Source: Isoptericola dokdonensis DS-3 (lineage in GTDB: Bacteria; Actinomycetota; Actinomycetes; Actinomycetales; Cellulomonadaceae). Taken from it: a stretch of DNA of 64,000 nucleotides. A model generated the notes under the pieces. That model searched no databases and was not told the DNA's origin. It saw only the letters and a list, made by a program, of their open reading frames with translations. Position numbers and translations under genes: made by a program. The stretch's first letter is position 1. Every line of letters begins with the position of its first letter. Of this stretch, positions 49,639 to 64,000 are shown one piece after another. The stretch is taken from assembly GCF_001636295.1 (NCBI RefSeq), contig NZ_CP014209.1:2852001-2916000 (forward strand), read 5' to 3'.

Positions 49639-49709
49639 AGCAACAGTCGAGACGTGTCGCGGCACGGATCGGCGCCCGGATGTCTCCGGCGGATGGTTGG
49701 CTCGGTGGC

Positions 49710-50846
49710 GTGACCGGCTACGACGCCTCCTTCCTCGGCCCCGACGACGCCCTCGCCGTCCCGCTGCCCGCGCCACGCGTGGTCCCCGGCGTCGCGCCCC
49801 GCGAGCTGCGCCGGCTCGACCACCCGCACTTCACCGTGCTCCTCGACCCCGCCCGGCGTCTCGCCGCCGCCACCGCCTGCACGATCGACGGCGCCCGGCT
49901 CCGGCCCCTGCCCCGCTCCGGCACCTGGCGGCTCGACCCGCAGGCGCCCGCCGACGAGCAGGCCGGCCCCGAGCTCTACGCCCGCAACGCCCTCGACCGC
50001 GGCCACCTCGTGCGCCGGCTCGACCCCATGTGGGGCACCGTCCCCGAGGCGCAGGCAGCCGGTCGCGCCACCTTCGTCTACTCCAACGCCGCCCCCCAGG
50101 TCGACCGGTTCAACCAGTCCAAGGAGCTGTGGAACGGACTCGAGGACCACGTCCTCGCCTTCGCCGACGTCCACGACCACCGCGTCGTCGTCCACACGGG
50201 GTGCGTCTCCGACCCCACCGACCCCGTCTACCGCGGCGTCGCCCTCCCGCGCCGCTTCTGGAAGGTCGCCGCCTGGGCGGCCGCCGCAGCGGCACCGTCC
50301 GACGACCCTGCAGGTCGAGGAGGCGTGTCGGCGCTCGCCGACGACCGCGAGTCAGCGCAGGCGGGCACGAGTCAGCGCGGACCGGCACGAGTCAGCGCAG
50401 GCGGGCGCGAGTCAGCGCAGACCGGCGCCAGTCAGCGCAGCCAAGCGCGAGTCAGCGCTGGCGACCGCGAGTCAGCGCAGGCGGGCACGAGTCAGCGCGA
50501 ACTGGCACGAGTCAGCGCGACCACCGAGCCACCGATGCTGCGCGCCGCGGCCTTCGTGCTGGACCAGTCCCCGCAGCTCGACGTCGCCGACCTGCGTGCA
50601 GCCACCGCCCAGGCCCTCGCCGTCGGGGACGTCCCACCACTCGGCCCCTACCGGACCTTCCAGGTCCCGGTCGCGGACGTCGAACGCCTCACGGGCCTCG
50701 ACCTCGGCGCCCTCGTCGCCGCGGACGTCCTCGCCGGGGAACCCGCTGCCGGCCGTCGCGACGTCGTCGAGCCACTGCGCGTCGGCACCGTCCCGAGAAG
50801 CTGGTCGCCGGTCACCACCCCCGCGGACCTCACCCTCGCCCCCTGA
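49710..50846 (+). CDS. DNA/RNA non-specific endonuclease interrupted in frame by a repeat array
   Basis: 378 residues from the GTG at 49710 (VTGYDASFLG); an ATG at 49680 adds ten residues. NUC1/His-Me-finger nuclease: RNALDRGHLVRR holds the catalytic DRGH motif, SNAAPQVDRFNQSKELWNGLE carries the metal-ligand Asn, and HTGCVSDPTDPVYRGV and RRFWKV follow. No signal peptide. Between RRFWKVAAW and the matching strand MLRAAAFVLDQ, family members have a short turn; here about 57 residues (about 214-270) are encoded by nine 20-bp repeats, reading RESAQ, TSQR and RVSA in rotation. The repeat holds no stop in the three sense frames, so the reading frame survives. Activity of the product is uncertain. 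Confidence 0.83.
   Translation: MTGYDASFLGPDDALAVPLPAPRVVPGVAPRELRRLDHPHFTVLLDPARRLAAATACTIDGARLRPLPRSGTWRLDPQAPADEQAGPELYARNALDRGHLVRRLDPMWGTVPEAQAAGRATFVYSNAAPQVDRFNQSKELWNGLEDHVLAFADVHDHRVVVHTGCVSDPTDPVYRGVALPRRFWKVAAWAAAAAAPSDDPAGRGGVSALADDRESAQAGTSQRGPARVSAGGRESAQTGASQRSQARVSAGDRESAQAGTSQRELARVSATTEPPMLRAAAFVLDQSPQLDVADLRAATAQALAVGDVPPLGPYRTFQVPVADVERLTGLDLGALVAADVLAGEPAAGRRDVVEPLRVGTVPRSWSPVTTPADLTLAP
50349..50518 (+). repeat. Intragenic array: nine GAGTCAGCGC motifs at 20-bp spacing
   Basis: Motifs start at 50349, 50369, 50389, 50409, 50429, 50469, 50489, 50509 and 50449, each followed by a ten-base spacer often ending GGCRC. The array lies within the endonuclease coding region. Confidence 0.93.
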
Positions 50847-50848
50847 CC

Positions 50849-50938
50849 GAGTCAGCGCGAGCTGCCGCCACTCAGCGCACACTGGCGCGAGTCAGCGTAG
50901 GCCTCCGCGAATCAGCGCAATCCTCCGCAAGTCAGCGT
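50849..50938 (+). repeat. Array of five GAGTCAGCGC motifs (locus I, left arm)
   Basis: Motifs, some with one change, start at 50849, 50869, 50889, 50909 and 50929; they begin 2 bp after the endonuclease stop and point towards the hairpin. Confidence 0.9.
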
Positions 50939-50960
50939 TGGACGCCGACGCAAGCCTGGA

Positions 50961-51055
50961 GGGCGTCGCAGGGTGCCGCGCGACGTCGTCGAACCCGGAG
51001 TGAAGGGCGCCCTGGCGCCCGTGAACGCGACGTCGCGCGGCACCCTGCGACGCCC
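50961..51055. repeat. Long hairpin with conserved core (locus I)
   Basis: Perfect 28-bp arms (50961-50988 with 51028-51055). The 39-base middle is the reverse complement of the core found at loci II and III (GTTCACGGGC...CCAGGG...CACTCCGGGT). Replaces any ordinary terminator between the endonuclease and antiporter genes. Confidence 0.9.
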
Positions 51056-51069
51056 GGACCCGGTAGTGC

Positions 51070-51139
51070 GCGCTGACTCGCGCCGGTGTGCGCTGACTCG
51101 CGCCGGTGTGCGCTGACTCGCTGGAGTCTGCGCTGACTT
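51070..51139 (-). repeat. Array of four inverted GAGTCAGCGC motifs (locus I, right arm)
   Basis: GCGCTGACTC starts at 51070, 51090, 51110 and 51130, again at 20-bp spacing. The array points back to the hairpin and ends about 40 bp before the antiporter promoter. Confidence 0.9.
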
Positions 51140-51177
51140 CGCCAGGCAGGCGAGCAGCGCGGACGATGGCGCCCCCC

Positions 51178-51183
51178 TACGGT
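51178..51183 (+). promoter_or_regulatory. Leaderless-type -10 hexamer TACGGT
   Basis: Ends 7 bases before the ATG at 51191. Confidence 0.5.
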
Positions 51184-51190
51184 GAGGTGC

Positions 51191-53041
51191 ATGGACGTCA
51201 TGCTGGTGGCGGTCGCGTCCGTCGCCGTGATCATCGCCGTGTCCGCGCTCGCACCCCGGGCGGGGGTGGGGGCGCCGCTGGTGCTGGTCCTGATCGGCCT
51301 CGGCGTGAGCTTCCTGCCGGCGGTCCCGGCGTTGGAGGTGGAGCCGGAGATCATCCTGGCCGGGGTGCTGCCGGCGCTGCTGTACGCGGCGGCGGCGTCG
51401 TTCCCGTCGATGGACTTCCGCCGCGACTTCGGGGCGATCTCGGGGCTGAGCGTGCTGCTGGTGGTGGTGTCGGCCGTCGTGCTGGGCTTCGTGTTCTCGT
51501 GGATGATCCCTGGCCTGGACCTGGCGGCCGGTATCGCGCTGGGTGCGATCGTCAGCCCGACGGACGCGGTGGCGACGTCGATCATCAAGCGCCTGGGCGC
51601 TCCCGCGCGCGTGGTGACGGTGCTCGACGGCGAGGGGCTGCTGAACGATGCGACGTCGCTCGTGCTGCTGCGGTCGGCGGTGGCGGCGACGGCGGCGAGC
51701 GTGTCGTTCTGGTCCGTCGTCGGGGACTTCGTGTGGGCGGTGGCGATCGCCGTCGTGAGCGGTGTGGTGGTGGGCCTGGTGGGGCTGCGGGTGCGGCGTC
51801 GGCTGCCGACCCCCGCGCTGTCCACCGGGGTGTCGTTCCTGGTGCCGTTCGCGGCGTACTGGCCGGCGGAGGCGCTGGAGGCGTCGGGGATCGTCGCCTC
51901 GGTGACGGCGGGCCTGGTGACGGGCACGCTGTCGGCCCGCTACCTGACGCCGCAGGTGCGGTCCGCGGAGAAGACGAACTGGCGCACGGTCGAGGGGCTG
52001 CTGGAGGGCGCGCTGTTCCTCGTCATGGGTCTGGAGTTCTTCGCCCTGGTCACGGACGTGCAGGCGGAGCACGGGTCGTTGTGGCAGGCGCTGTGGGTGG
52101 CGGTCGTCGCGGCGGTGGGCGTGATCGCGATCCGGGCGGCCTTCATCCTGCCGCTGCTGCGGCTGCTCGCGCGCCGACGCCGGCGTGGCGAGGAGATGCG
52201 CGGCGCCCTCACGACCATGCAGGACCGGCTCGACGCGAAGCTGGCCCGGCGTGACGACTCACGGCCGATGACGTCGGCGGACGCCGTGGACGTGCTGCAC
52301 GCCGCCTGGCCGGAGGAGGACCAGGAGCGCCGTCGGCGCCGCCAGGAGCAGTGGGAACGCCGGGTCGCGGACCATCCGGAGGAGGCGCGGCACCGCCAGC
52401 GGCTGCTCGACCGTCTCGACCAGTTCCGGCGTCGGCTGACGCGGCGGGTCGCGGACATCGACTACCTCGCGGCGGCGCCGCTCGGGCCGAAGGAGGGGGT
52501 GGTGCTGGTGTGGGCCGGCATGCGGGGCGTGGTGACGCTGGCCGCGGCGCAGACCCTCCCGCAGGACTTCCCGCAGCGGTCGCTGCTGGTCCTCGTCGCG
52601 TTCGGGGTGGCGGTCGGCACGCTGCTCGTGCAGGGCGGGACGTTGCCGTGGGTGGTGCGTCGGCTCGGGCTCGCCGGGGTGGAGTCGCCGACGGCGGCCG
52701 ACCACGCGGCCGGGCTGCGCGCCGTCGTGCACGACGCCGCCACGGGCCTGCTCGACGGGGCGCCCGCCCGCCCGGACGGGACGCCCTACGAGCGGGACGT
52801 CGTCGCGACCGTCCGCGGCGCCGTCGTGCGAGAGGAGTCGGAGCGGGACGAGGACGCCGCCCGGTCCGACGAGCTGTCGGCGCAGTACTTCGAGCTGCGG
52901 GTCCGGGTGATCGAGGCGCAGCGTGACGCCCTGCTGCGGGCCCGCGCGGACGGCACGTTCGACTCGGCGCTGCTGTCCCGCGCCCTGGACCTGCTGGACG
53001 CGGAGCAGATCGCCGTCGAGATGCGCGGCGAGACGCTCTGA
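51191..53041 (+). CDS. Na+/H+ antiporter, CPA1 family
   Basis: 616 residues; ATG 51191 is fixed by the hexamer upstream. About eleven helices in the first 400 residues include ILAGVLPALLYAAAASFP, GAIVSPTDAVATSIIKRLG (ion-site region with TD) and LDGEGLLNDATSLVL (the ND-type motif of CPA1). A cytoplasmic charged segment of about 120 residues (345-450, many Arg/Glu) splits the transport domain before GVVLVWAGMRGVVTLAAAQT. The tail of about 130 residues is helical and acidic. Expected role: sodium or potassium/proton exchange for pH and salt homeostasis. Confidence 0.9.
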   Translation: MDVMLVAVASVAVIIAVSALAPRAGVGAPLVLVLIGLGVSFLPAVPALEVEPEIILAGVLPALLYAAAASFPSMDFRRDFGAISGLSVLLVVVSAVVLGFVFSWMIPGLDLAAGIALGAIVSPTDAVATSIIKRLGAPARVVTVLDGEGLLNDATSLVLLRSAVAATAASVSFWSVVGDFVWAVAIAVVSGVVVGLVGLRVRRRLPTPALSTGVSFLVPFAAYWPAEALEASGIVASVTAGLVTGTLSARYLTPQVRSAEKTNWRTVEGLLEGALFLVMGLEFFALVTDVQAEHGSLWQALWVAVVAAVGVIAIRAAFILPLLRLLARRRRRGEEMRGALTTMQDRLDAKLARRDDSRPMTSADAVDVLHAAWPEEDQERRRRRQEQWERRVADHPEEARHRQRLLDRLDQFRRRLTRRVADIDYLAAAPLGPKEGVVLVWAGMRGVVTLAAAQTLPQDFPQRSLLVLVAFGVAVGTLLVQGGTLPWVVRRLGLAGVESPTAADHAAGLRAVVHDAATGLLDGAPARPDGTPYERDVVATVRGAVVREESERDEDAARSDELSAQYFELRVRVIEAQRDALLRARADGTFDSALLSRALDLLDAEQIAVEMRGETL

Positions 53042-53071
53042 CCCGGACGCCGCACCTGCCCTGTTGCCGCA

Positions 53072-53131
53072 ACGAGCGTGCAGACCTGGCACCCCATCGG
53101 GGCGGATGGGGTGCCAGGTCTGCACGCTCGT
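53072..53131. terminator. 27-bp perfect inverted repeat (long hairpin) between convergent genes
   Basis: 53072-53098 pairs perfectly with 53105-53131 with a 6-base loop. It lies between the antiporter stop and the stop of the minus-strand permease and shares the GAGCGT...CATC half-site layout with 28926-28984. Confidence 0.72.
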
Positions 53132-53153
53132 CGCGTCGACGGGGCCGGCGCCG

Positions 53154-53978
53154 TCAGGCCGTCTTGATCTCGCCGCGGGTCACCCGGGCGATGCCGACGG
53201 CCAGCGGGATCCCCACCCACACGAGCGTCGACGTGGCGATCTGCGCCCACATCTCCCCGCCGCTGGACAGGTCCAGCTGGGCGGCCATGGCCGGGTCGGT
53301 CATCAGCGGTGCGCTCGCCGTCGACAGGTCGATCCACGGCCACACGTCGGCCCACGCCGTGACGAACACCGCCACGGTGCTCACGACGACGGGCAGCACC
53401 AGATAGGTGACGATCGCGGTCGGCGTGCTGAGGAACGCGAGACCGAACGCGACACCGCTGAGCATCCAGATCGCCACCATCACCAGGGTGCCCCAGGTGA
53501 CCGTGCCCATGCTCCAGTCGGGGGTCGCGTCACGGAACGTCACGACCCACAGGTGGGCCAGCGCGGCGATCCCGACGGCGACGACGTAGAACGCCACACC
53601 GGACCCGACAGCGGTCACGGCCTTCGCCCAGATGACCCGCAGGCGCCGCGGCTCCAGGGTGAAGGTCGTCAGGGCGGTGCGCTGCGACCACTCGGACGTC
53701 GCCGCGAGGATCGCGACGATCGGCAGCAGCATCGCGAGCGGCGTCGAGCTGCCGATGAGGAACGCCTCGAACGGCACGTTCCCGTCGCCGACGGCGCCCA
53801 TGACGAGCATGACGGCGGCGGTGACGGCCGCGATGACGATGAGCAGCCAGCGTCCCGCGCGGGTGTCGAGCTGCTTGCGCCACTCCACCAGGACGAGACG
53901 GCCGAACGTGACGGCCGGGACGTCGCTGCGGCTGGTCAGCGTGGGCGGCGGGGACAGGGTGCGGTCGACGGTGGTCAT
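53154..53978 (-). CDS. ABC-2 type transporter permease (second exporter module)
   Basis: 274 residues, six helices (WLLIVIAAVTAAVMLVMGAV, STPLAMLLPIVAILAATSEW, AIVTYLVLPVVVSTVAVFV and others). TSEWSQRTALTTFTLEPRRL is the amphipathic segment matching TAEYERGAATTTFAVVPRR of the permease at 26215, so the two modules are related. Overlaps its ATPase gene by ATGA. Confidence 0.86.
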   Translation of the reverse strand: MTTVDRTLSPPPTLTSRSDVPAVTFGRLVLVEWRKQLDTRAGRWLLIVIAAVTAAVMLVMGAVGDGNVPFEAFLIGSSTPLAMLLPIVAILAATSEWSQRTALTTFTLEPRRLRVIWAKAVTAVGSGVAFYVVAVGIAALAHLWVVTFRDATPDWSMGTVTWGTLVMVAIWMLSGVAFGLAFLSTPTAIVTYLVLPVVVSTVAVFVTAWADVWPWIDLSTASAPLMTDPAMAAQLDLSSGGEMWAQIATSTLVWVGIPLAVGIARVTRGEIKTA

Positions 53979-54874
53979 GCCGTCACCTCCTCACGGGCGT
54001 GCTCGGCGGTGAGCTCGAGGAACAGCTCCTCGAGGCCGCGCGAGGAGGCCTCGCGCAGCTCGACGACGACGACGCCGGCGCTCGCCGCGGTGCGGGCGAC
54101 GTGCTCGGCGTCGGCGGTGGCGACGACGCCGCCACCGGTGCGGTGCTCCACCTCGGTGCCGGCAGCGCGCAGGGCGGACACGAGCGCGGCGTCGTCGGTG
54201 GACCGGACGTACGTGCCGGCGCCACGCAGCAGCTCGTCCTTGGTGCCGTCGGCGACGATGCGGCCCCGGCCGATGACGACGATGCGGTCCGCGACCTGCT
54301 CGATCTCCCCGAGGAGGTGCGACGACAGCAGCACGGTGCCGCCGTCGGCGGCGTACCCGCGCAGGAGGTCGCGCATCCACCGGATGCCGGCGGGGTCGAG
54401 GCCGTTGGCGGGCTCGTCGAGGATGAGGACCTCGGGCTCCCCGAGCAGGGCACCCGCGAGGCCGAGGCGCTGCCGCATGCCGAGCGAGTACGTGCCGACG
54501 CGGCGGGACGCCTCGGCGGTGGTGAGCCCGACGACGTCGAGGACCTCGTCGACGCGGGAACGGCCCACGCCCGTCAGGAGCGCGGCGAGCGCGAGGACCT
54601 CGCGGCCCGTGCGGCCGGCGTGCTGCGCGGAGGCGTCGAGCAGGACGCCGACGCGGCGGCCCGGGTTGGTGAGCGCCGCGTACGGCAGCCCGAGGATGCG
54701 CGTCGAGCCCGACGAGGCCGGGGTCAGGCCGCACATCATGCGCATGGTCGTCGACTTCCCGGCGCCGTTCGGGCCGAGGAAGCCGGTGACGAGACCCGGC
54801 TCGGCGGTGAACGACACGTCGTCCACGGCCAGGACCGGCCCGTACCTCTTGGTCAGGTGCTCCACGGTGATCAT
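53975..54874 (-). CDS. ABC transporter ATP-binding protein (second exporter module)
   Basis: 299 residues; ATG at 54874 with GGAG upstream (MITVEHLTKRYGPVLAV). Walker A GPNGAGKSTTM, signature YSLGMRQRLGLA, Walker B VLILDEPANGLDP, H-loop LLSSHLLGEI. The C-terminal ~80 residues carry a domain as in BcrA/NatA-type exporters. It diverges from a two-component system 160 bp away, a usual arrangement when the regulator controls the exporter. Confidence 0.9.
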   Translation of the reverse strand: MITVEHLTKRYGPVLAVDDVSFTAEPGLVTGFLGPNGAGKSTTMRMMCGLTPASSGSTRILGLPYAALTNPGRRVGVLLDASAQHAGRTGREVLALAALLTGVGRSRVDEVLDVVGLTTAEASRRVGTYSLGMRQRLGLAGALLGEPEVLILDEPANGLDPAGIRWMRDLLRGYAADGGTVLLSSHLLGEIEQVADRIVVIGRGRIVADGTKDELLRGAGTYVRSTDDAALVSALRAAGTEVEHRTGGGVVATADAEHVARTAASAGVVVVELREASSRGLEELFLELTAEHAREEVTA

Positions 54875-55023
54875 GGCTCCAGCCTCCCGGGCGGGCGGCC
54901 GCGGCGGATCACCCGGACGGTGGGTCCTGCTCCGTCGGCCGGATGGACCCGGGTCATCCTTTCGGCGGATGCCGGCCCGGCAGGCCGAGCCCGACGTCGG
55001 ATGCCACGGCGGGGTGCCCGACC

Positions 55024-55029
55024 TACGCT
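55024..55029 (+). promoter_or_regulatory. Leaderless-type -10 hexamer TACGCT
   Basis: Ends 6 bases before the GTG at 55036. Confidence 0.5.
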
Positions 55030-55035
55030 CGCTGG

Positions 55036-56334
55036 GTGCCCGAACCCTCCGACCCCACCCCTGCCGACCGGCCGGCCCGCCCGACCGCCCCGACGGGGTC
55101 CGGCCTGCCGGGCGGACCGACGGCGCCGCCGCGGGCCCCGGGTCGCGCCGCACGGATCTGGTCGGAGACGTGGCGCCTCGGGCTCGCGCTCCTCATGAGC
55201 ATGGTCGTCACCGGGTTCGTCGTCGTGGAGGTCGAGGCGCAGCGGATGGCGATGACGGGCGAGCAGCTCGCGCTCGACATCGCCGTCGGGATGCTGTGCT
55301 TCGGCCTGGTCCTGCTGCGGCACCGCTGGCCGACGGCGGTCGCCCTGGTGGTGTGCACCGCGGGAGCCGTCTCGGTGTTCGCCGTCGGCCCGATCACGCT
55401 CGCCGTCGTCTCGCTCGCGACCCACCGGCGGTGGTGGCGTATCGCCGTCGTCGCCGTGGTGTACACCGTCGCCCTGTGGACGTACGAGCAGCTCTACCCG
55501 TCCGTCGAGCCGATGCCGTGGGCCGTGTCGATCGTCGGCGGGCTCGGGATGTTCGCCCTGCTCGTGTGGATCGGCGCCTACGTCGGGCTGCGCCGCGAGC
55601 ACATCGCGTCCCTGTACGAGCGGATCGCGACGGCCGAGCGCGAGCAGGCCAGCCGTGTCGCGCAGGCCCGCGCCAACGAGCGGGCACGCATCGCCCGCGA
55701 GATGCACGACGTCCTCGCCCACCGCATGTCGCTGGTCGCGATGCACGCCGGGGCGCTCGCGTACCGCTCCGACCTGCCGCCCGAGCAGGTCGCCGAGACC
55801 GCGGCGCTCGTCCGCGACTCCGCCCACGAGGCCCTCGGCGAGCTGCGGGAGGTCCTCGGTGTGCTGCGTGGGCTCGACGGTCCCGCACCCGGAGCCGACG
55901 ACGCCGAGGCGCGCCCCGAACGCCCCCAGCCCACCCTCGCCGACCTCGACGAGCTCGTCGTCGCGACCACCGCCGCCGGCACCCCGGTACGCGTCACCGA
56001 CCGGGTGCCCGATGACGCCGCCCTGCCCCTCGCGGCGTCCCGCAGCGCCTTCCGCATCGTCCAGGAGGCCCTGACCAACGTGCGCAAGCACGCCCCCGGC
56101 ATCACGGCGTCGATCGTGCTGCGCGGCGCCCCCGGCCAGGGCCTGTGGATCACGGTGAGCAACCCGACCCCCGCCCGCGAGCCCGCCGCACCCGGCGCCG
56201 AGACCCGACCCCCGACGTCCGGGCTCGGCCTGCTCGGGCTCATGGAACGCGCCGAGCTCGCCGGCGGCACCCTCACCGCCCGCGACGCCGACGGCCGGTT
56301 CGTCGTCCAGGCCTGGCTACCGTGGGCGCCATGA
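55036..56334 (+). CDS. Sensor histidine kinase (HisKA_3 type)
   Basis: 432 residues from the GTG at 55036; the ATG at 54943 lies upstream of the promoter hexamer. A Pro/Ala-rich cytoplasmic N-terminus (about 1-45), four to five helices (about 50-190), then a coiled linker (LYERIATAEREQASRVAQA) and the phosphoacceptor AREMHDVLAHRMSLVAMHAG with His224. HATPase: LTNVRKHAPGI and SGLGLLGLMERAEL. Partner of the next gene (ATGA overlap). Confidence 0.92.
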   Translation: MPEPSDPTPADRPARPTAPTGSGLPGGPTAPPRAPGRAARIWSETWRLGLALLMSMVVTGFVVVEVEAQRMAMTGEQLALDIAVGMLCFGLVLLRHRWPTAVALVVCTAGAVSVFAVGPITLAVVSLATHRRWWRIAVVAVVYTVALWTYEQLYPSVEPMPWAVSIVGGLGMFALLVWIGAYVGLRREHIASLYERIATAEREQASRVAQARANERARIAREMHDVLAHRMSLVAMHAGALAYRSDLPPEQVAETAALVRDSAHEALGELREVLGVLRGLDGPAPGADDAEARPERPQPTLADLDELVVATTAAGTPVRVTDRVPDDAALPLAASRSAFRIVQEALTNVRKHAPGITASIVLRGAPGQGLWITVSNPTPAREPAAPGAETRPPTSGLGLLGLMERAELAGGTLTARDADGRFVVQAWLPWAP

Positions 56335-56996
56335 ACGTGGTGAACGTCGTGGTCGTGGACGACGACCCCCTGGTCCGTGCCGGGCTCCGCCTCATCCTCG
56401 GCGGGACCCCGCAGGTCGACGTCGTCGCGGACGCCGCCGACGGTGCCGACGCCGTCGACGTCGTCCGCCGCACCCGACCCGACGTCGTCCTCATGGACAT
56501 CCGCATGCCCCGGCTCGACGGGCTGGAGGCCACGCGCCGCGTCGTCGCGCTCCCCGACGCACCGCGCGTCATCGTCCTGACGACCTTCGACACCGACGAC
56601 ATGGTGCTCCAGGCCCTGCGCGCCGGAGCCGCCGGGTTCCTCCTCAAGGACACCCCGCCCGAACGGCTCGTCGCCGCGGTCCTCGCCGCCGCCGACGGCG
56701 AGCCCACCCTCTCGCCGTCCGTCATGACCCAGCTCATCGCGCGGGTGTCCGCCGAGGTGCCCGACCCGGCCGTCCGCCCCGGCTCCGCCGCGCAACGCGT
56801 CGCGTCCCTCACCGACCGGGAGCGGGAGGTCGCCGTCGTCCTGGCGCGCGGGCTGTCGAACGCGGAGATCGCCGCCGAGCTCTACCTGAGCGTCCCCACC
56901 GTGAAGACCCACCTGTCGCGGATCCTCGACAAGCTCGGCGCCGCCAACCGTGTCCAGGCCGCCATCGCCGTGCACGACGCGGGCCTCACCGCGTAG
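56331..56996 (+). CDS. NarL/LuxR-type response regulator
   Basis: 221 residues. Receiver 1-120: VVVDDDPLVRAG, phospho-acceptor Asp56 in VVLMDIRMPRLDG, TTFDTDDMVLQALRAGAAGF. LuxR HTH at about 155-215: LTDREREVAVVLARGLSNAE, VKTHLSRILDKLGAANR. Normal linker, unlike the regulator at 38370. Probably controls the divergent ABC exporter. The first motif of repeat locus II starts 3 bases after its stop. Confidence 0.93.
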   Translation: MNVVNVVVVDDDPLVRAGLRLILGGTPQVDVVADAADGADAVDVVRRTRPDVVLMDIRMPRLDGLEATRRVVALPDAPRVIVLTTFDTDDMVLQALRAGAAGFLLKDTPPERLVAAVLAAADGEPTLSPSVMTQLIARVSAEVPDPAVRPGSAAQRVASLTDREREVAVVLARGLSNAEIAAELYLSVPTVKTHLSRILDKLGAANRVQAAIAVHDAGLTA

Positions 56997-56998
56997 CC

Positions 56999-57128
56999 GA
57001 GTCAGCGCACGTCGGCGCGAGTCAGCGCAACCGGGCGCCAGTCAGCGCAAGCGAGCGCGAGTCAGCGCAGTTTTGCGCGAGTCAGCGCACGGCGGCGCGA
57101 GTCAGCGCAGGTTGCGGCGAGTCGGCGT
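56999..57128 (+). repeat. Array of seven GAGTCAGCGC motifs (locus II, left arm)
   Basis: Starts at 56999, 57019, 57039, 57059, 57079, 57099 and 57119 (last one GAGTCGGCGT). Spacers usually end in GCGC. Directly abuts the response-regulator stop. Confidence 0.92.
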
Positions 57129-57140
57129 GCGCTGGCTTCC

Positions 57141-57235
57141 GGACGGCGGAGGGAGCCGCGCGTCGTCGCGTTCACGGGCCCCAGGGGGCCCTCCACTTCG
57201 GGTCGGACGACGACGCGCGGCACCCTCCGCCGTCC
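57141..57235. repeat. Long hairpin with conserved core (locus II)
   Basis: 28-bp arms (57141-57168 with 57208-57235) with one mismatch. The middle (57169-57207) has the core in forward orientation: CGTTCACGGGCCCCAGGGGG, CCCTCCACTTCGGGTC. Confidence 0.9.
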
Positions 57236-57325
57236 TTCGTCGTCACGTCGGGCTTGTGGTCTCGACGACGACGACGCGCGGCACCCTCCGCCGTCCTTCG
57301 TCGTCACGTCGGGCTCGTGGTGTCG
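57204..57325 (+). repeat. 61-bp tandem duplication of the right hairpin arm
   Basis: The segment with CGACGACGCGCGGCACCCTC and TCGTCACGTCGGGC occurs twice at 61-bp distance with only a few differences, so the left arm has two possible partners. Confidence 0.85.
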
Positions 57326-57360
57326 ACGCCGGCGGGGGCGGGGCGGTCGTGCACGGACGT

Positions 57361-57430
57361 GCGCTGACTGAACGAGGTTCACGCTGACTCGCGCCGATGT
57401 GCGCTGACTCGCGCCGTCGTGCGCTGACCG
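57361..57430 (-). repeat. Array of four inverted GAGTCAGCGC motifs (locus II, right arm)
   Basis: Starts at 57361, 57381, 57401 and 57421 (20-bp spacing), ending 2 bp from the stop of the minus-strand nfo gene. Locus II thus fills the whole gap between two convergent stop codons. Confidence 0.9.
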
Positions 57431-57432
57431 CG

Positions 57433-58218
57433 TCAGAGGCGGGCGCGGAGCCAGGCGATGTCGGTGCCCATGTCGCCCTTGGTCTCGCAGATGACGGGGG
57501 CGCCGGCATCGCGGACGACGCCGACCAGGAGGTCCTCGGGGATCTCGCCGACGCCGAAGTTGGTGTGCCGGTCGGCGCCCGACCCGGCGGCGTCGCGGGA
57601 GTCGTTGGCGTGGACGAGGTCGATGCGACCGGTGATCGCGGTGACGTCCGCGACGACGGTCGCCAGGTCCAGGCCCCCGGCCCAGGCGTGGCACGTGTCG
57701 AGGGTGAATCCGACGTCGGACCCGCCGTCGGCCTGCTGGATCGCGGCCCACAGCTGCTCGATCCGGTCCAGGCGGCGGGCCATCGAGAAGTCGCCGCCGG
57801 CGGTGTTCTCCACCAGCACCGGGACGTCCGTCTCGAGGGAGTCGATCGCCTTGCGCCAGTTGTCGAACCCGGTGGCGGGGTCGTCCTTCGCGGTGACGTG
57901 CCCGCCGTGCACCACCACACCCTTCGCGCCGATCTCGCCCGCGCGGGTCATCACCTGCTGGAGCAGCTTGCGGCTCGGGATGCGGATGCGGTTGTTCGGC
58001 GACGCGACGTTGATGACGTACGGCGCGTGCACGAACACGTCGATCCCTGCGGCTGCGACGTCCGCGCGGAACGCCTCGGCACCGCCGTCGTACTCCAGCG
58101 GCGGCACCTTCCACGACTGCGGGTCGGAGACGAACACCTGCACGACGTCGGCCTGGAGCCGGCCGGCCTCCGCGACGGCGTCGTCCAGGGACACGTGGGC
58201 ACCGATCTGCAGGCTCAT
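57433..58218 (-). CDS. nfo: Deoxyribonuclease IV (AP endonuclease, endonuclease IV family)
   Basis: 261 residues; ATG at 58218, supported by TAGGCT ending 7 bases upstream. TIM-barrel AP endonuclease that cuts 5' to abasic sites in base-excision repair. Metal-site stretches are present: IGAHVS at the N-terminus, VVHGGHVTAKDD, VLVENTAGG, TLDTCHAWAGG, HANDSRDAAGSGADRHTNFG and ICETKGD at the C-terminus, which carry the His, Glu and Asp ligands of the trinuclear zinc centre. Slightly shorter than E. coli Nfo (285). Confidence 0.92.
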   Translation of the reverse strand: MSLQIGAHVSLDDAVAEAGRLQADVVQVFVSDPQSWKVPPLEYDGGAEAFRADVAAAGIDVFVHAPYVINVASPNNRIRIPSRKLLQQVMTRAGEIGAKGVVVHGGHVTAKDDPATGFDNWRKAIDSLETDVPVLVENTAGGDFSMARRLDRIEQLWAAIQQADGGSDVGFTLDTCHAWAGGLDLATVVADVTAITGRIDLVHANDSRDAAGSGADRHTNFGVGEIPEDLLVGVVRDAGAPVICETKGDMGTDIAWLRARL

Positions 58219-58225
58219 GCCCGCC

Positions 58226-58231
58226 AGCCTA
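58226..58231 (-). promoter_or_regulatory. Leaderless-type -10 hexamer TAGGCT (minus strand)
   Basis: Ends 7 bases before the nfo ATG at 58218. Confidence 0.5.
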
Positions 58232-58352
58232 GGCGGCACCACCCACGCTCGCGGGATGCGTCACGCCGGGACGCTCCGAGGTACCTCAACTGTCCGACGC
58301 GCGCGCGTGTCCGCTGCTACGTTGCAGGCCTCACCAACGGAGGAGTCGCGGG

Positions 58353-58607
58353 ATGGTCTGGGGTAGTGGCTGGTTCACCGTCATCTCGCTCGTGCAGCTG
58401 CTGGCGCCCCTGGTGACGGCGACCGCGCTCGTGGTCATCGCGGTGACTTTCGTCCGTCGCGCCCGCGCCGCCGCCCCGGTGGACCCGACCGACCGCCCCG
58501 GTCTGATGGAACAGCGGCTGGAGCACCTCGACCGGCTGCACGCCGCGGGGCGCATCACCGACGACGAGCGCAGCGCGGCCCGCGCCCGGCTGCTCGGCGA
58601 GTTCTGA
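58353..58607 (+). CDS. Small membrane protein with C-terminal SHOCT motif
   Basis: 84 residues, GGAGGAG ribosome site 8 bases before the ATG. One membrane helix (about 10-32, VQLLAPLVTATALVVIAVTF) and a cytoplasmic SHOCT segment, MEQRLEHLDRLHAAGRITDD then ERSAARARLL. SHOCT motifs are thought to mediate oligomerisation. The next gene carries an equivalent C-terminus. Confidence 0.8.
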   Translation: MVWGSGWFTVISLVQLLAPLVTATALVVIAVTFVRRARAAAPVDPTDRPGLMEQRLEHLDRLHAAGRITDDERSAARARLLGEF

Positions 58608-58614
58608 GGCGGCC

Positions 58615-59064
58615 GTGGAACCCTCCGACCTCCTGGACGCCTACCACTCGGGCGACATGACAGGTGACGACGTCTTCATCGAGGACCCCGCGTTCGTCGA
58701 CCCGACGTTCGTCGACCCGTCGGGCGGCGCGTTCGGCAGCCTCTTCGCCCTCGTCGCCGTGCTCGTCGTCATCAGCGTGATCGTGGGCGTCGCGATGTCG
58801 GTGCGGCGTGCCGCCAAGCTCCGTGACGCGGGGATCGACCCGCTCGACCCCACGACGGACCTGCAGATCCGGTACATGCAGCGCACGGCACCGTCGCCGG
58901 AGACCCGTCGTCCGACCCCCGACGTCCCGCCCGCCCCCGCCCAGGCATCGACCCCGCGGCCGGTCGAGGAGCGGCTCGCCGAGATCGACCGCCTGCACGA
59001 GGCGGGCACGATCACGGCGGCGGAGCGCGACGCGGCCCGCGCGCGGGTCATCGAGACCATCTGA
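58615..59064 (+). CDS. Membrane protein with C-terminal SHOCT motif
   Basis: 149 residues from a GTG, 7 bp after the preceding gene. Acidic N-terminus (about 1-40), one helix (about 42-63, LFALVAVLVVISVIVGVAM), a Pro-rich linker and the SHOCT end VEERLAEIDRLHEAGTITAA, ERDAARARVI. It and its neighbour likely form an operon and may interact through their similar C-termini. Function unknown. Confidence 0.8.
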   Translation: MEPSDLLDAYHSGDMTGDDVFIEDPAFVDPTFVDPSGGAFGSLFALVAVLVVISVIVGVAMSVRRAAKLRDAGIDPLDPTTDLQIRYMQRTAPSPETRRPTPDVPPAPAQASTPRPVEERLAEIDRLHEAGTITAAERDAARARVIETI

Positions 59065-59114
59065 CGCAGCCCCCCGCGGTCGCCCGGCACGATCTGGAGC
59101 GAACGGCGCGCGCG

Positions 59115-59120
59115 TAGGCT
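59115..59120 (+). promoter_or_regulatory. Leaderless-type -10 hexamer TAGGCT
   Basis: Ends 7 bases before the ATG at 59128. Confidence 0.5.
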
Positions 59121-59127
59121 GGGACGC

Positions 59128-59952
59128 ATGCCCAGCACTCCTCCGCTCGCGTACGTCGTCGCCGGTTCCGAGGCCACCGGCGGCGCCGGCATCCAGGCCG
59201 ACCTGAAGACGTTCCAGCAGCTCGGCGCGTACGGCGTCGGCACGCTCACCTGCATCGTCTCGTTCGACCCGCAGAACGACTGGGGTCACCGGTTCGTCCC
59301 GGTGGACCCGCAGGTCATCGCGGACCAGATCGAGGCCGCGACGGGCACGCACGACCTGGACGTCGTGAAGATCGGGATGCTCGGCACCCCCGCCACGGTG
59401 GACGTCGTGGCGCGGTCGCTGGCGGCGCAGCCGTGGCGGCACGTCGTGCTCGACCCGGTGCTGATCTGCAAGGGCCAGGAGCCGGGCGCCGCGCTGGACA
59501 CGGACACGGCGCTGCGGGAGCAGGTGCTGCCGCTGGCGACGGTCGTCACCCCGAACCTCTTCGAGGCGCGCACCCTGGCGGGCATGGACCGGATCGGTTC
59601 CGTCGAGGAGCTGGTCGAGGCGGCCCGCCGCATCCACGCGCAGCTCGACACCCCGGCCGGGCCGCGGTACGTCGTCGCCAAGGGCGGTGCAGAGCTGCCC
59701 GGGCCGGACGCCGTCGACGTCGTGTTCGACGGGCAGGAGGTCACCGTCCTGTCGGCGCCGAAGATCGGCGAGGAGCGGGTGTCCGGCGCGGGCTGCACGT
59801 TCGCCGCGGCGATCACCGCCGAGCTCGCGAAGGGCGCGGACGTCCCCGACGCCGTCCGCACGGCCAAGGACGTCGTCACCGCGGGCATCGAGGCGCGGGT
59901 CGCGGCCCGCACCCCCTTCGACACGGTCTGGCAGGGTGCGTACCGCCCCTGA
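59128..59952 (+). CDS. ThiD/PdxK-type kinase (hydroxymethylpyrimidine or pyridoxine kinase)
   Basis: 274 residues, ribokinase fold. VVAGSEATGGAGIQADLKTF is the substrate/N-terminal signature of the ThiD group, GMLGTPATVDVV and VLDPVLICKG follow, and GEERVSGAGCTFAAAITAEL is the catalytic anion-hole region (GAGC; Cys as in the CC-PLK type of pyridoxal kinases). The Cys, together with a stand-alone position away from thiamine genes, makes a vitamin B6 kinase (PdxK-like) a good alternative to thiamine ThiD; sequence alone does not decide. Confidence 0.85.
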   Translation: MPSTPPLAYVVAGSEATGGAGIQADLKTFQQLGAYGVGTLTCIVSFDPQNDWGHRFVPVDPQVIADQIEAATGTHDLDVVKIGMLGTPATVDVVARSLAAQPWRHVVLDPVLICKGQEPGAALDTDTALREQVLPLATVVTPNLFEARTLAGMDRIGSVEELVEAARRIHAQLDTPAGPRYVVAKGGAELPGPDAVDVVFDGQEVTVLSAPKIGEERVSGAGCTFAAAITAELAKGADVPDAVRTAKDVVTAGIEARVAARTPFDTVWQGAYRP

Positions 59953-60018
59953 CCCCGCCACGGGAGGGTCAGGTGACCGCACACCGGACGCAAACTTCGC
60001 CTCAAGCCCGGTTCGGCT

Positions 60019-60024
60019 TACCCT
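60019..60024 (+). promoter_or_regulatory. Leaderless-type -10 hexamer TACCCT
   Basis: Ends 7 bases before the GTG at 60032. Confidence 0.48.
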
Positions 60025-60031
60025 CGGGTGC

Positions 60032-62755
60032 GTGACCGACAACAACGGACAGCACAGCCCGAGCACGGGCGCCATCGAGCGTGTGGTCGCCCGTCACGAG
60101 ATGCCCGACCCGCTGCGCGAGGACATCCGCCTGCTCGGCGGCCTTCTCGGCAGCGTGCTGCGGGAGTCCGGCGGCCAGGAGCTGCTCGACGACGTCGAGC
60201 ACCTGCGCGAGCTGACGATCCGCGCGTACGGCGTGGTGGACGACGGCGTCGCGCTGGCCGAGGCCGCGGACGTCGTCGCGGGGTTCTCGCAGGAGCGTGC
60301 CGAGCAGGTCGCCCGCGCGTTCACCTGCTACTTCCACCTGGCGAACCTCGCCGAGGAGTACCACCGGGTGCGGGTGCTCCGGCAGCGTGAGCTCGAGGCC
60401 GGCGCGGCCATCGAGGAGTCCCTGCCGGCGGCGTTCACGCAGCTCGCGGAAGAGGTCGGGCGGGACGAGGCGCTGCGTCGCCTCGGCGAGCTCGAGTTCC
60501 GGCCCGTCCTGACGGCCCACCCCACCGAGGCGCGCCGCCGGGCGGTGTCCGGCGCCGTGCGCCGCATCTCCACGCTGCTCGCCGAGCGCGACACCATGCA
60601 CCTCGGCGGGACGTCCCGCACCGAGAACGAGCGCCGGCTCCTCGCCGAGATCGACACCATGTGGCGCACGTCCCCCATCCGCGCCAGCAAGCCGACCGTC
60701 CTCGACGAGGTCAAGACGGCGATGGGCGTGTTCGACGCCACCATGTTCGACACGTTCCCCGAGGTGTACCGCCGCCTGGACGACTGGCTGCTCGACGGCG
60801 AGGCCGGGCGCACGCTGCCCCTGGCGAAGCCGTTCGTGTTCCTCGGCACGTGGATCGGCGGGGACCGCGACGGCAACCCCAACGTCACCGCGGAGGTCAC
60901 CCGCCAGGCCGCGACGCTGGCCGCCGAGCACGCGCTGACCGCCCTGGAGAACGCCACCCGGGCCACCGGCCGCAAGCTCACCCTCGAGGAGGCGAGCACG
61001 CCCGCGTCGGCGGGGCTCAAGGCGCTCTGGCAGAAGATGCGCCAGCTGTCCGACGAGCTCGTCGTGCAGGCCGCCGCCGAGTCGCCGAACGAGCCGCACC
61101 GCGCCGCCGTCCTCGCGATCGCCGGCCGGATCCGGGCGACCCGCACCCGCGACGCCGACCTCGCCTACGGAGCCCCCGAGGAGCTGGAGGCCGACCTGCA
61201 GGTCGTGCAGTCCTCGCTCGTCGAGGCCGGCGCCCACCGCGCCGCGTACGGCGACCTGCAGCGCCTCGTCTGGCAGGTGCAGACCTTCGGGTTCCACCTG
61301 GCCGAGATCGAGGTCCGCCAGCACTCGCAGGTGCACGCCGCCGCGCTCGAGGAGATCGCGGAGAAGGGCGTCCACGGCGACCTCTCCGACCGCACCCGCG
61401 AGGTGCTCGACACGTACCGTGCGCTCGGCGCCGTGCAGAAGCGGTTCGGCGTGCGCGCCGCCCGCCGCTACATCGTGTCGTTCACGCAGGCGCCCGAGCA
61501 CCTGGCCGCCGTCTACCAGCTCGCCGAGCTCGCGTTCGAGGGCAGCGACGACGTGCCCGTCATCGACGCGATCCCGCTGTTCGAGACCTTCGCGGACCTC
61601 GAGAACTCCGTCGACATCCTCGAAGCCATGCTGGAGATGCCGCAGGTGCAGCGCCGCCTCGCGGAGAACGGCCGCCGCGTCGAGGTCATGCTCGGCTACT
61701 CCGACTCCTCCAAGGACGTCGGCCCCGTCGCCGCGACCCTCGCCCTGCACTCCGCCCAGTCGCGGATCGCCCAGTGGGCGGCCCGCCACGGCATCACGCT
61801 CACCCAGTTCCACGGCCGTGGTGGCGCCCTCGGTCGCGGGGGCGGCCCCGCCAACCGGGCCGTGCTGGCGCAGCCGCCGCACTCCGTCGACGGTCGGTTC
61901 AAGCTCACCGAGCAGGGCGAGGTCATCCTCGCCCGCTACGGCGACCCGACCATCGCGGCCCGGCACATCGAGCAGGTCGCCGCGGCCACCCTGCTCGCGT
62001 CCGCGCCGTCCACCGAGGAGCGCAACGCGACGACGGCGGAGCGGTTCGCCCCGGTCGCCACGTCCCTCGACGCGACGTCCCGCGCCCGGTTCCACGAGCT
62101 CGTCAAGTCCGAGGGCTTCCCCCAGTGGTTCGCCCAGGTGACGCCGCTGGAGGAGGTCGGCCTGCTGCCGATCGGCTCCCGTCCCGCGAAGCGCGGCCTG
62201 TCCGTCAACTCGCTCGACGACCTGCGCGCCATCCCGTGGGTGTTCTCCTGGTCGCAGGCCCGCATCAACCTCGCCGGCTGGTACGGGCTGGGCACCGCCC
62301 TGCGGGAGTTCGGCGACCTCGACGTGCTGCGCGCCGCGTACACCGAGTGGCCGCTGTTCGGCACGCTCCTCGACAACATCGAGATGTCGCTCGCCAAGAC
62401 CGACGAGCGCATCGCCGAGCAGTACCTCGCCCTCGGCGACCGCGACGACCTCGCGCAGATGGTGCTCGACGAGCTGCGCCTCACCCGCGAGTGGGTCCTC
62501 AAGATCACCGGCAACGACTGGCCGCTGGCCAGCCGCCGCGTGCTCGGGCGCGCCGTCCAGCTCCGGTCGCCCTACGTGGACGCCCTGTCGCTGCTCCAGG
62601 TGCGCGCGCTGCGCGCCCTGCGCACCCAGGGTGCCAGCGAGGGTCTCACGGTGGACGACGGCGAGTGGGTCGACGGCGGGTACAAGGACCGCTGGCAGCA
62701 CCTGCTGCTCCTCACCGTCAACGGCGTGTCCGCCGGCCTGCAGAACACGGGCTGA
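60032..62755 (+). CDS. ppc: Phosphoenolpyruvate carboxylase
   Basis: 907 residues; the GTG at 60032 (VTDNNGQHSPSTG) gives the usual family length, and the frame further upstream overlaps the kinase gene. Makes oxaloacetate from PEP and bicarbonate to refill the TCA cycle. His163 in LTAHPTEARRR is the catalytic histidine; FLGTWIGGDRDGNPNVT binds PEP; VMLGYSDSSKDVGP and FHGRGGALGRGGGPANRAVL (about residue 595) are the second signature. It ends with QNTG, the conserved C-terminus. TGATG overlap with cutC. Confidence 0.96.
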   Translation: MTDNNGQHSPSTGAIERVVARHEMPDPLREDIRLLGGLLGSVLRESGGQELLDDVEHLRELTIRAYGVVDDGVALAEAADVVAGFSQERAEQVARAFTCYFHLANLAEEYHRVRVLRQRELEAGAAIEESLPAAFTQLAEEVGRDEALRRLGELEFRPVLTAHPTEARRRAVSGAVRRISTLLAERDTMHLGGTSRTENERRLLAEIDTMWRTSPIRASKPTVLDEVKTAMGVFDATMFDTFPEVYRRLDDWLLDGEAGRTLPLAKPFVFLGTWIGGDRDGNPNVTAEVTRQAATLAAEHALTALENATRATGRKLTLEEASTPASAGLKALWQKMRQLSDELVVQAAAESPNEPHRAAVLAIAGRIRATRTRDADLAYGAPEELEADLQVVQSSLVEAGAHRAAYGDLQRLVWQVQTFGFHLAEIEVRQHSQVHAAALEEIAEKGVHGDLSDRTREVLDTYRALGAVQKRFGVRAARRYIVSFTQAPEHLAAVYQLAELAFEGSDDVPVIDAIPLFETFADLENSVDILEAMLEMPQVQRRLAENGRRVEVMLGYSDSSKDVGPVAATLALHSAQSRIAQWAARHGITLTQFHGRGGALGRGGGPANRAVLAQPPHSVDGRFKLTEQGEVILARYGDPTIAARHIEQVAAATLLASAPSTEERNATTAERFAPVATSLDATSRARFHELVKSEGFPQWFAQVTPLEEVGLLPIGSRPAKRGLSVNSLDDLRAIPWVFSWSQARINLAGWYGLGTALREFGDLDVLRAAYTEWPLFGTLLDNIEMSLAKTDERIAEQYLALGDRDDLAQMVLDELRLTREWVLKITGNDWPLASRRVLGRAVQLRSPYVDALSLLQVRALRALRTQGASEGLTVDDGEWVDGGYKDRWQHLLLLTVNGVSAGLQNTG

Positions 62756-63615
62756 TGGACCAGGACGTGACGCCCGTCGGTGCCGCGGCACCGACGGGCT
62801 CCGCCGTGCCCGGTGACGCCGTCCCTGCCGGCACCGCGCGGCCGGAGGCCTGGCGTACCGGGACGGTGCCCGTGCTCGAGCTCGCCGTGCAGGACGTCGC
62901 CGGGGTCGACGTCGCGGCCCGTGTCGGGGCACGACGCGTCGAGCTGTGCGCGGCCCTCGGCGCCACCGGCGGCATGACGCCCGGCCCCGGACTGCTCGCC
63001 GCCGCCGTCGAACGCGCTGCCGCGCCCACCGCCGGAGCACCCGTCGAGGTGCACGTGCTCGTGCGCCCCCGCACCGGCGGCTTCGTGCTCGTCGACGGCG
63101 AGCTCGACGTCCAGGTCCGCGAGGTGACGGCCGCCGTCGCCGCCGGGGCGCACGGCGTCGTCGTCGGAGCCCTCACCCCGGCCGGCACGGTCGACACGGC
63201 GGCCGTCCGCGCCCTCGCCGCCGCCGCGGCCGGGGCCGAGGTCACCTTCCACCGGGCCTTCGACCAGGTCGCCGACCCGATCGCCGCCCTGGACAGCCTC
63301 GCCGCCGCCGGCGTGACCCGGGTCCTCACCTCCGGTGGCGCCGCCCGCTGCCTCGACGGCCTCGACCGGCTGCGGACCTGCGCCCACCACGCCCACGGCC
63401 GGCTCGGCGGTGCCGTGCAGGTCATGGCCGGCGGCGGCGTCCGCGTCGACGACGTCCCCGCACTGCGCGCCGTCGGCGTCGACGCCGTCCACCTGTCCGC
63501 CAAGCGTGTCGTGTCCGACGACGGTGGGCCCGGCGGGGGAGGGGACTCCGGCTACGAGGTCACCGACCCCGACGTCGCCGCGGCCGCCGCCGCGGCGCTG
63601 GGGCTGCTCGGCTGA
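62755..63615 (+). CDS. cutC: CutC family protein
   Basis: 286 residues; ATG overlaps the ppc stop by one base. A 35-residue Ala/Pro/Thr-rich N-terminus precedes the TIM barrel, which starts VPVLELAVQDVAGVDVAARV, GARRVELCAALGATGGMTP. Further landmarks: EVHVLVRPRTGGF, EVTFHRAFDQVADP, VTRVLTSGGAARCLDGL and VMAGGGVRVDD. CutC was named for copper homeostasis, but its biochemical role is unsettled. Coupling to ppc may only reflect operon packing. Confidence 0.92.
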   Translation: MDQDVTPVGAAAPTGSAVPGDAVPAGTARPEAWRTGTVPVLELAVQDVAGVDVAARVGARRVELCAALGATGGMTPGPGLLAAAVERAAAPTAGAPVEVHVLVRPRTGGFVLVDGELDVQVREVTAAVAAGAHGVVVGALTPAGTVDTAAVRALAAAAAGAEVTFHRAFDQVADPIAALDSLAAAGVTRVLTSGGAARCLDGLDRLRTCAHHAHGRLGGAVQVMAGGGVRVDDVPALRAVGVDAVHLSAKRVVSDDGGPGGGGDSGYEVTDPDVAAAAAAALGLLG

Positions 63616-63621
63616 GCTTCG

Positions 63622-63672
63622 TTCGGGCTGTTCGGGCTGTTCGGGCTGTTCGGGCTGTTCGGGCTGTTCGGG
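63622..63672 (+). repeat. 9-bp tandem repeat TTCGGGCTG, 5.7 copies
   Basis: Perfect copies from 63622, immediately after cutC, ending in a partial TTCGGG at 63667-63672. A simple sequence repeat likely to vary in copy number. Confidence 0.95.
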
Positions 63673-63674
63673 TC

Positions 63675-63774
63675 GGCCGGGGCGCCGGGGTGGCGCGCCG
63701 TCGCGTTCACGGGCCCCCAGGGGGGCCCTCCACTCCGGGTCTGACGACGGCGCGCGACCCCGGCGACCCCGGCC
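63675..63774. repeat. Long hairpin with conserved core (locus III)
   Basis: Arms 63675-63703 and 63745-63774 pair over about 28 bp with one mismatch and one unpaired base. Core (63704-63744) in forward orientation: CGTTCACGGGCCCCCAGGGG and CTCCACTCCGGGTCTGACG. Confidence 0.88.
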
Positions 63775-64000
63775 GGGTCAGCGCCGTTCGATGCGAGTCA
63801 GCGCAGGTTCCACCGAGTCAGCGTACGGACGGCCGAGTCAGCGCTCGGCGTGGCGAGTCAGCGTACGGATCGCCGAGTCAGCGTACGGACGGCCGAGTCA
63901 GCGCTCGGCGTGGCGAGTCAGCGTACGGACGGCCGAGTCAGCGCTCGGCGTGGCGAGTCAGCATCAGGACCGCCGAGTCGGCGCGACCTGCGCTGACTCG
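63775..64000 (+). repeat. Array of eleven GAGTCAGCGC motifs plus a first inverted one (locus III, runs out of the window)
   Basis: Motifs at 63775 and every 20 bp to 63975, alternating between endings GCGC and GCGT. A 60-bp higher-order unit (GCGTACGGACGGCC, GCGCTCGGCGTGGC) is duplicated. At 63990 the inverted form GCGCTGACTC begins, so a right arm continues beyond the window. Confidence 0.92.

Follow-up and report, generated by a model that had tools for sequence, protein, structure and literature searches.

Our analysis identifies, in Isoptericola dokdonensis DS-3, a family of arrays in which a short motif (CGAGTCAGCGC in this species) is repeated head to tail at a 20-bp pitch between drifting spacers, placed at the 3' ends of genes and most often between convergent genes. 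The palindromes that tend to accompany the arrays belong to a second, separable and older-looking family. We tentatively interpret the arrays as phased binding sites for a putative protein, forming a gene-end boundary of the BIME kind, and we place the probability of this reading at roughly 40%. What could be observed directly is the pitch, the constancy of the motif, the dialects among relatives, the location at gene ends, the indifference to orientation, the occurrence in some species and not others, and the co-location with palindromes.

The arrangement is seen in compact form at locus II, the gap at 56997-57432 of the window, by which we mean the whole 64-kb stretch of DNA analysed. This gap separates a LuxR-type response regulator gene (56322-56996, + strand; PF00072 and PF00196), which is conserved in sister genomes, from a convergent gene of the AP-endonuclease family (57433-58218, - strand; PF01261), called nfo in the preliminary description. 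Seven direct motifs of the GAGTCAGCGC type occupy 56999-57127 of the + strand at a 20-bp pitch, with starts at 56999, 57019, 57039, 57059, 57079, 57099 and 57119, the first array lying 2 bp from the regulator's stop codon. Four inverted motifs at a pitch of about 20 bp occupy 57362-57430 of the - strand, with starts at 57362, 57382, 57402 and 57421. Between them lies a core palindrome (57141-57235, +), whose 28-nt arms (57141-57168 and 57208-57235) are 96% complementary and whose apical sequence, GTTCACGGGC..GCCCTCCACTTCGGGTC, is conserved. The gap is filled by these elements, as the preliminary description had it, with 2 bp to spare on each side, though a 61-bp tandem duplication of the palindrome's 3' arm and the sequence downstream of it was overlooked there (57206-57327, +; copies at 57206-57266 and 57267-57327, 97% identical).

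The same plan had been claimed for two other loci in the window and holds for the first of them. Locus I (50849-51139) has direct motifs after the TGA stop (50849-50937, +), a core palindrome with flanks (50944-51076, -) and four inverted motifs (51071-51139, -). Locus III departs from the plan, with the hairpin first (core palindrome with flanks, 63655-63789, +) and both arrays to its right, namely eleven direct motifs (63775-63983, +) and the start of an inverted array (63991-64000, -) that continues past the window end (chromosome 2916011-2916059). A perfect 9-bp tandem repeat, GTTCGGGCT, present in 5.8 copies at 63621-63672 just past a stop codon, adjoins the locus III palindrome. The window also contains a nine-unit array (50349-50517, +) within the coding frame of a nuclease gene (49680-50846; PF01223), where the sister genome G008 carries a different linker. 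Gain or loss of units in numbers other than multiples of three would throw the gene out of frame, which makes the array a possible phase-variation site.

The 20-bp period is a property of the genome at large. Motif pairs at 20 bp number 35 in the window (at most 3 mismatches), against 0.09 expected from shuffles, and 216 + 233 = 449 on the 3.83-Mb chromosome (at most 2 mismatches), against 0 + 0 for the reversed control; recurrence elsewhere in the genome was the test that the preliminary description had proposed for itself. In a sample of 33% of the genome (59 evenly spaced 20-kb stretches, one stretch next to the window and the window itself), same-strand GAGTCAGCG pairs with at most one mismatch numbered 179, 124, 82, 50, 28 and 17 at spacings of 20, 40, 60, 80, 100 and 120 bp, and no other spacing within 120 bp was represented by more than five pairs. 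A spacing of exactly 20 bp in every array, as originally reported, is thus correct for nearly all units of this genome but for rare steps of 19, 21 and 40 bp. Chance or composition as the cause of the arrays is ruled out by the shuffle and reversed controls and the spacing counts. The sample contains 46 clusters, with locus III, cut by the window end, counted as two, and extrapolates to a genome total of roughly 130-140, mostly at gene ends. Four clusters are single motifs and 42 are multi-motif, the latter comprising 25 in one orientation only, 10 of the >< type and 7 of the <> type; the array-hairpin-array plan is a minority among them.

The unit consensus, (C)GAGTCAGCG(C), was derived from 239 units in 62 runs and has eight core positions that are 97-100% constant, with weaker edges (first G 85%, last C 88%, next base A 64%). 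Part of this constancy is built in by the selection of hits at no more than one mismatch, against which we set the observation that 20-bp steps are far commoner than 40-bp skips. Apart from a C/G-rich end the spacer is loose, and adjacent spacers differ at a mean of 4.27 of 11 sites, which bears out their description as variable. Identical adjacent spacers nevertheless occur in 13.7% of cases against 0.26% at random, indicating that arrays grow by tandem duplication and that spacers then drift while motifs hold. Homogenisation could also account for the constancy of motifs within arrays.

Mapping of the copies against gene ends, also proposed in the preliminary description, places the arrays at gene 3' ends and most often between convergent genes. 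With gene positions from a simple gene caller of our own (1118 genes in the 33% sample), the 59 arms of at least two units divide into 31 in convergent gaps, 19 in tandem gaps, 2 in divergent gaps, 1 in a gene and 6 at stretch edges. Counted as distinct gaps, arrays are found in 19 of 191 convergent, 16 of 675 tandem and 2 of 191 divergent ones (convergent versus the rest, p 2.8e-6), and 15 of the 19 arms in tandem gaps are closer to the 3' end of the upstream gene (p 0.019). In 12 of the 46 clusters, by our own count, the outermost motif itself supplies the TGA stop of a flanking gene (GCGC-TGA-CTC). Array orientation relative to the nearest gene end is evenly divided, 25 same and 25 opposite, which argues for recognition as double-stranded DNA.

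The palindrome family behaves differently, its stem varying from copy to copy around the conserved apex. The sample contains 20 copies and one more at a stretch edge, or about 60 per genome by extrapolation; a permissive scan with the palindrome core was discarded since its matches were mostly spurious. Our alignment comprises 24 copies (20 from the home genome, G000, and 4 from G008), retained from 27 rows after L066, L086:14571 and L122 were dropped by eye as chance matches. Its consensus has an energy of -76 kcal/mol, with two-sided changes at 24 of 35 pairs. The 648 cells of the 27-pair main stem comprise 596 Watson-Crick pairs, 48 mismatches, 3 G-U pairs and 1 gap, and this scarcity of G-U suggests that the arms are generated or corrected at the DNA level, for example by template switching. 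Orthologous stems of G000 and G008 at three loci differ by 4, 0 and 2 two-sided Watson-Crick changes and by 2, 3 and 5 other changes; the latter indicate that decay in place occurs too and count against correction as DNA. A noisier, fold-based stem count gave 7 two-sided Watson-Crick changes, 4 one-sided changes to G-U, 20 one-sided changes that break the pair and 4 other two-sided changes. A palindrome family whose arms differ in each copy and yet pair almost only by Watson-Crick rules is a second puzzle posed by these genomes.

Placement at gene 3' ends between converging genes, together with the stability and two-sided changes of the palindrome consensus, could be explained if palindromes and convergent arrays formed structures in the RNA that terminate transcription from both sides or stabilise 3' ends. 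In keeping with such a role at the RNA level, the locus II arrays are 79-97% mutually complementary, the compact >><< elements of a second genus (g6) are inverted repeats of up to 28 bp, and array units have lower folding energies than their shuffled counterparts (median -6.2 versus -4.0 kcal/mol). We regard this explanation as distinctly improbable, however, because arm-to-arm pairing is impossible in the single-orientation clusters (25 of the 42 with several motifs), orientation to the gene is random, and 3 G-U pairs in 648 stem cells is below our own expectation for RNA under compensatory selection. Rfam likewise gave 0 matches at gathering score within 50000-64000, the best sub-threshold match on the palindrome core being F6 at 31.1 bits against 46.

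Palindromes in the sample lie in convergent gaps (12), tandem gaps (6), a gene (1) or at stretch edges (2), with 0 in divergent gaps. An array shares the gap in 7 of 11 convergent core-bearing gaps (1.1 expected, p 8e-6) and in 3 of the 6 tandem gaps with a core (0.14 expected, p 2e-4), and array-core-array composites occur also in G008 and, spelled in other dialects, in G007 and G012. In 11 sister genomes, the core locus with the best score has both arms in 2 cases, one arm in 2 and none in 7. The pairing of arrays with palindromes is a tendency and not a rule, and the single composite element originally envisaged finds no support: arrays and hairpin occur together in 10 of 17 classifiable core-bearing gaps and, by our patterns and model, apart in other genera. 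A palindrome model, R1, matches 39 of 221 family genomes, including 18 of 18 congeners and members of five other genera, among them genera in which the array patterns gave no match, with no match in the 17 genomes of g6; it scored at most 15 candidates per genome, so that counts are minima, and the matches inspected individually are those of G000 and G008.

Inward-facing arrays that flank a palindrome at several places in the home genome, and in G008, G007 and G012, also bring to mind the ends of a mobile element, in which > < arrays would be multi-site transposase ends around cargo or palindrome, and single genes are flanked by arrays in a few places. This explanation is very unlikely: the flanked genes appear by eye to be unrelated and ordinary, many clusters face outward or have a single orientation, and no plasmid or phage match was obtained. 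Array-bounded cargo was accordingly rejected from the look of the enclosed genes, as was plasmid or phage origin, the three pattern matches in viral contigs being plain short tandem repeats of period 10/20. Single small genes lie between inward-facing arrays at L035 13013-13450, L068 112-696 and L059 14337-14921; by eye, they are Nudix-like, acetyltransferase-like and unknown.

Related genomes carry the same kind of array in other spellings. The exact pattern CGAGKYAG N12 CGAGKYAG matches 43 of 221 family genomes, whereas reversed controls gave 0 in nearly all genomes and never more than 2; several other family genomes have only one to three matches, which may be chance. By 20-bp pattern, arrays are found in 14 of 18 congeners (14-286 matches each) and in 17 of 17 genomes of g6 (1-26), so that the proposed search of related genomes recovers the motif at the same, or nearly the same, pitch. 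These patterns impose a 20-bp step, which makes the g6 counts minima. Four congeners (G002, G006, G009 and G014) have no array at this step, including by a looser three-unit pattern. Counts of exact motifs at free spacing in G005, G008, G017 and G007 gave 20, 40 and 60 bp with two exceptions overall, at 19 and 39 bp; steps at g6 loci, themselves picked by the 20-bp pattern, are 20 bp in 30 of 47 cases, 21 bp in 16 and 22 bp in 1. Head-to-tail g6 arrays with 21-bp or mixed 20/21-bp steps, missed by the pure 20-bp pattern, are present at L166 7332, L169 5857 and L163 5909. An exact scan of genome contigs for the home spelling gave 3 unrelated records with small local repeats, and a draw of 396 genomes at order level gave the own genus and two single matches, with a pattern that is narrower than the known dialects and would miss that of g6. 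In Tersicoccus solisilvae (L031, about 368-485), two TGCGCTGACTCCGGC units at 20 bp lie past an apparent gene end beside a palindrome.

At least six spellings of the motif exist among the relatives: CGAGTCAGCGC in the home genome and G008, CGAGGTAGCGC in G017, G015, G016 and G004, CGAGGTAGTG in G007, CGAGGTAGGC in G001 and G005, CGAGGTAGTTC/TCC in G003 and CGAGGTAGAAC/AGC in g6. These calls were made from hit counts or first listed places and not from all matches, and G010 and G013 fall outside the assignment. G008 has a second spelling, GACTCAGCG, which probably explains its 41 reversed-control matches. The common form in g6 is compact, CGAGGTAG N12 CGAGGTAG N13 CTACCTCG N12 CTACCTCG, often near stop codons, and such elements occupy corresponding places in several species at loci that are 83-99% identical. 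In two sets of six orthologous g6 elements, identity reaches 0.95 and 0.98 in the motifs, compared with 0.84 and 0.86 in the spacers, in small samples with motif columns defined from one intact sequence. The 50-base flanks of set X reach 0.92 (left, partly coding) and 0.87, and the left flank of set Y 0.82, its right flank being without alignment. The contrast between motif and spacer is a modest one, as the left flank of set X lies above the spacers and near the motif value. In G130, L171 and L175 lie about 15 kb from one another and are similar gene ends (..CGGC-TGA), both with a compact element shortly after the stop, and paired ends of this type recur at corresponding loci of other g6 species.

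Individual gaps differ greatly between sister genomes. The gap orthologous to locus II is without array in G017 (23 bp), G006 (39 bp), G012 (65 bp), G014 (92 bp) and G003 (136 bp); it measures 200 bp in G005, with an array in another spelling, and 524 bp in G008, with arrays and palindrome, while six further sisters have longer gaps occupied by other sequence or genes. The locus III gap is 451 bp here, 512 bp in G008, 30 bp in G005 and 52 bp in G007. In G009 (L108), a sister without arrays at 20 bp, the corresponding gap contains a different repeated palindromic sequence, no more than about 500 bp beyond the 3' end of the AP-endonuclease gene. The arrays look dispensable, being absent at 20 bp from 4 of 18 congeners and from orthologous gaps of others.

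A selfish repeat, later tolerated at gene ends, accounts for this patchiness equally well and is a close rival of the binding-site reading, nearly as likely in our estimation. Under this alternative, the 20-bp units would be spread by a putative motif-recognising enzyme and persist where they do least harm, without benefit to the host. Presence in 14 of 18 congeners, the four sisters whose array-free gaps measure just 23, 39, 65 and 92 bp, the array within a coding frame, the tandem growth of units and their orientation independence are all consistent with it. On the other hand, orthologous g6 motifs are more conserved than their spacers, and g6 elements persist at the same places. RAYT is the proposed mobiliser of REP sequences, although some REP genomes may lack it, and a search for RAYT (PF01797) gave no match in any of the 18 congeners or of 23 genomes from other genera with array matches, 5 of 14 named controls being positive. 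For the Y1 type, the earlier observation that no transposase is present extends to 41 genomes.

The binding-site reading, to which we return, draws on what is least variable in the arrays, the pitch and the motif, together with what they seem indifferent to, namely orientation, spacer and partner hairpin; this combination points to a protein that recognises the sites in the double helix, and the location at gene ends suggests a boundary role. Each array would be a row of binding-site-like motifs to which a putative sequence-specific DNA-binding protein of the lineage may bind cooperatively at a pitch of about two turns. Once bound, the array would form a nucleoprotein block at the 3' ends of genes, mainly where two genes converge, that could work in either orientation as a boundary to transcription or supercoiling, a role hypothesised for REP/BIME clusters (PMC3733652). 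Motif spelling and protein would co-evolve, giving rise to dialects, and arrays would grow and shrink through tandem duplication of units.

Counting against this reading are the congeners and orthologous gaps without arrays, the array within a coding frame and the pitch of 20 bp, which at 10.5 bp per turn falls short of a whole number of turns. The suggestion that all motifs lie on one face of the helix fails for the same reason, as 20 bp is 1.9 turns, with a rotation of about 34 degrees per unit and about 206 over seven motifs. A one-face arrangement would need near 10.0 bp per turn, and the 21-bp steps common in g6 are two full turns. A slow spiral of sites would suit a filament-forming binder. 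Going further, a lineage-specific polymerising DNA-binding protein may coat hundreds of sites of two-turn pitch at converging gene ends and organise domains of transcription or topology, the word being re-spelled genome-wide as putative protein and sites co-evolve; this fuller version is speculative and somewhat unlikely. The concerted replacement of a short word at many places, with the 20-bp pitch kept, is a testable case of co-evolution between sites and protein. If the arrays are protein-bound, they would represent a gene-end boundary system outside the groups in which BIMEs are known; if selfish, they would be a repeat family that spreads without RAYT.

In agreement with the preliminary description, which knew of no named element of this kind, no named family for the arrays was found in Rfam or in literature searches. 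A text search for the motif gave none about such a repeat among the matches listed, and for Cellulosimicrobium, Isoptericola and intergenic tandem repeats nothing among the matches listed was pertinent. CRISPR and TIGR arrays resemble the present arrays in the alternation of conserved and variable segments. A 20-bp period and a motif of about 10 bp, compared with CRISPR repeats of 24-48 bp, uphold the earlier exclusion of CRISPR. TIGR arrays consist of conserved and variable segments and are accompanied by a Tas protein with a Nop domain. We rejected this identity from the number of clusters (46 in the sampled third of the genome), the 20-bp period and the lack of a Nop-domain gene (PF01798; 0 matches in the own genome, 4 of 14 control genomes positive). 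Iteron and ParR-type centromere arrays are direct repeats of about 20 bp bound cooperatively; the arrays described here differ in being present many times along the chromosome, at the ends of genes.

Uptake sequences are scattered as single copies or pairs. A word of about ten bases, dialects among relatives and a gene-end location would fit uptake-type recognition sequences with species dialects, and a short word whose spelling differs among related species is the feature shared with the DNA uptake sequence dialects of Neisseriaceae (PMC3630211). Nearly all copies here are in arrays, in contrast to the dispersed singles of Neisseriaceae, and in the 33% sample single exact motifs make up 4 of the 46 clusters, which makes this identity scarcely credible. 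REPIN/RAYT systems (PMC3116915) share with the arrays the character of non-coding dispersed repeats that populate intergenic space; here RAYT is lacking and the unit is not a hairpin pair.

Among the closest comparisons are REP/BIME repeats, in particular the GTAG-tagged REPs. In the description of Di Nocera et al. (2013; PMC3733652), these are numerous, usually lie downstream of genes that are followed by a convergent or a unidirectional neighbour, form pairs and clusters, and include some copies within genes. The main text of that paper is without the names Isoptericola, Xylanimonas, Cellulomonas and Actinobacteria. Our arrays, too, lie downstream of genes in convergent and unidirectional gaps. 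As to the tag, GTAG is contained within CGAGGTAG in most dialects, the home species and G008 having CGAGTCAG instead (TCAG for GTAG). A GTAG-tagged REP unit is characterised by a palindrome with a 5-13 bp stem beside the tag. An uninterrupted stem of at least 5 bp is present in 31 of 179 array units, against 46 of 179 after one shuffle each, while the fold energies below those of shuffled units indicate that short stems are present. The arrays thus differ from GTAG-tagged REPs in the lack of RAYT, in having few units with a 5-bp stem, and in a head-to-tail pitch that is fixed at 20 bp.
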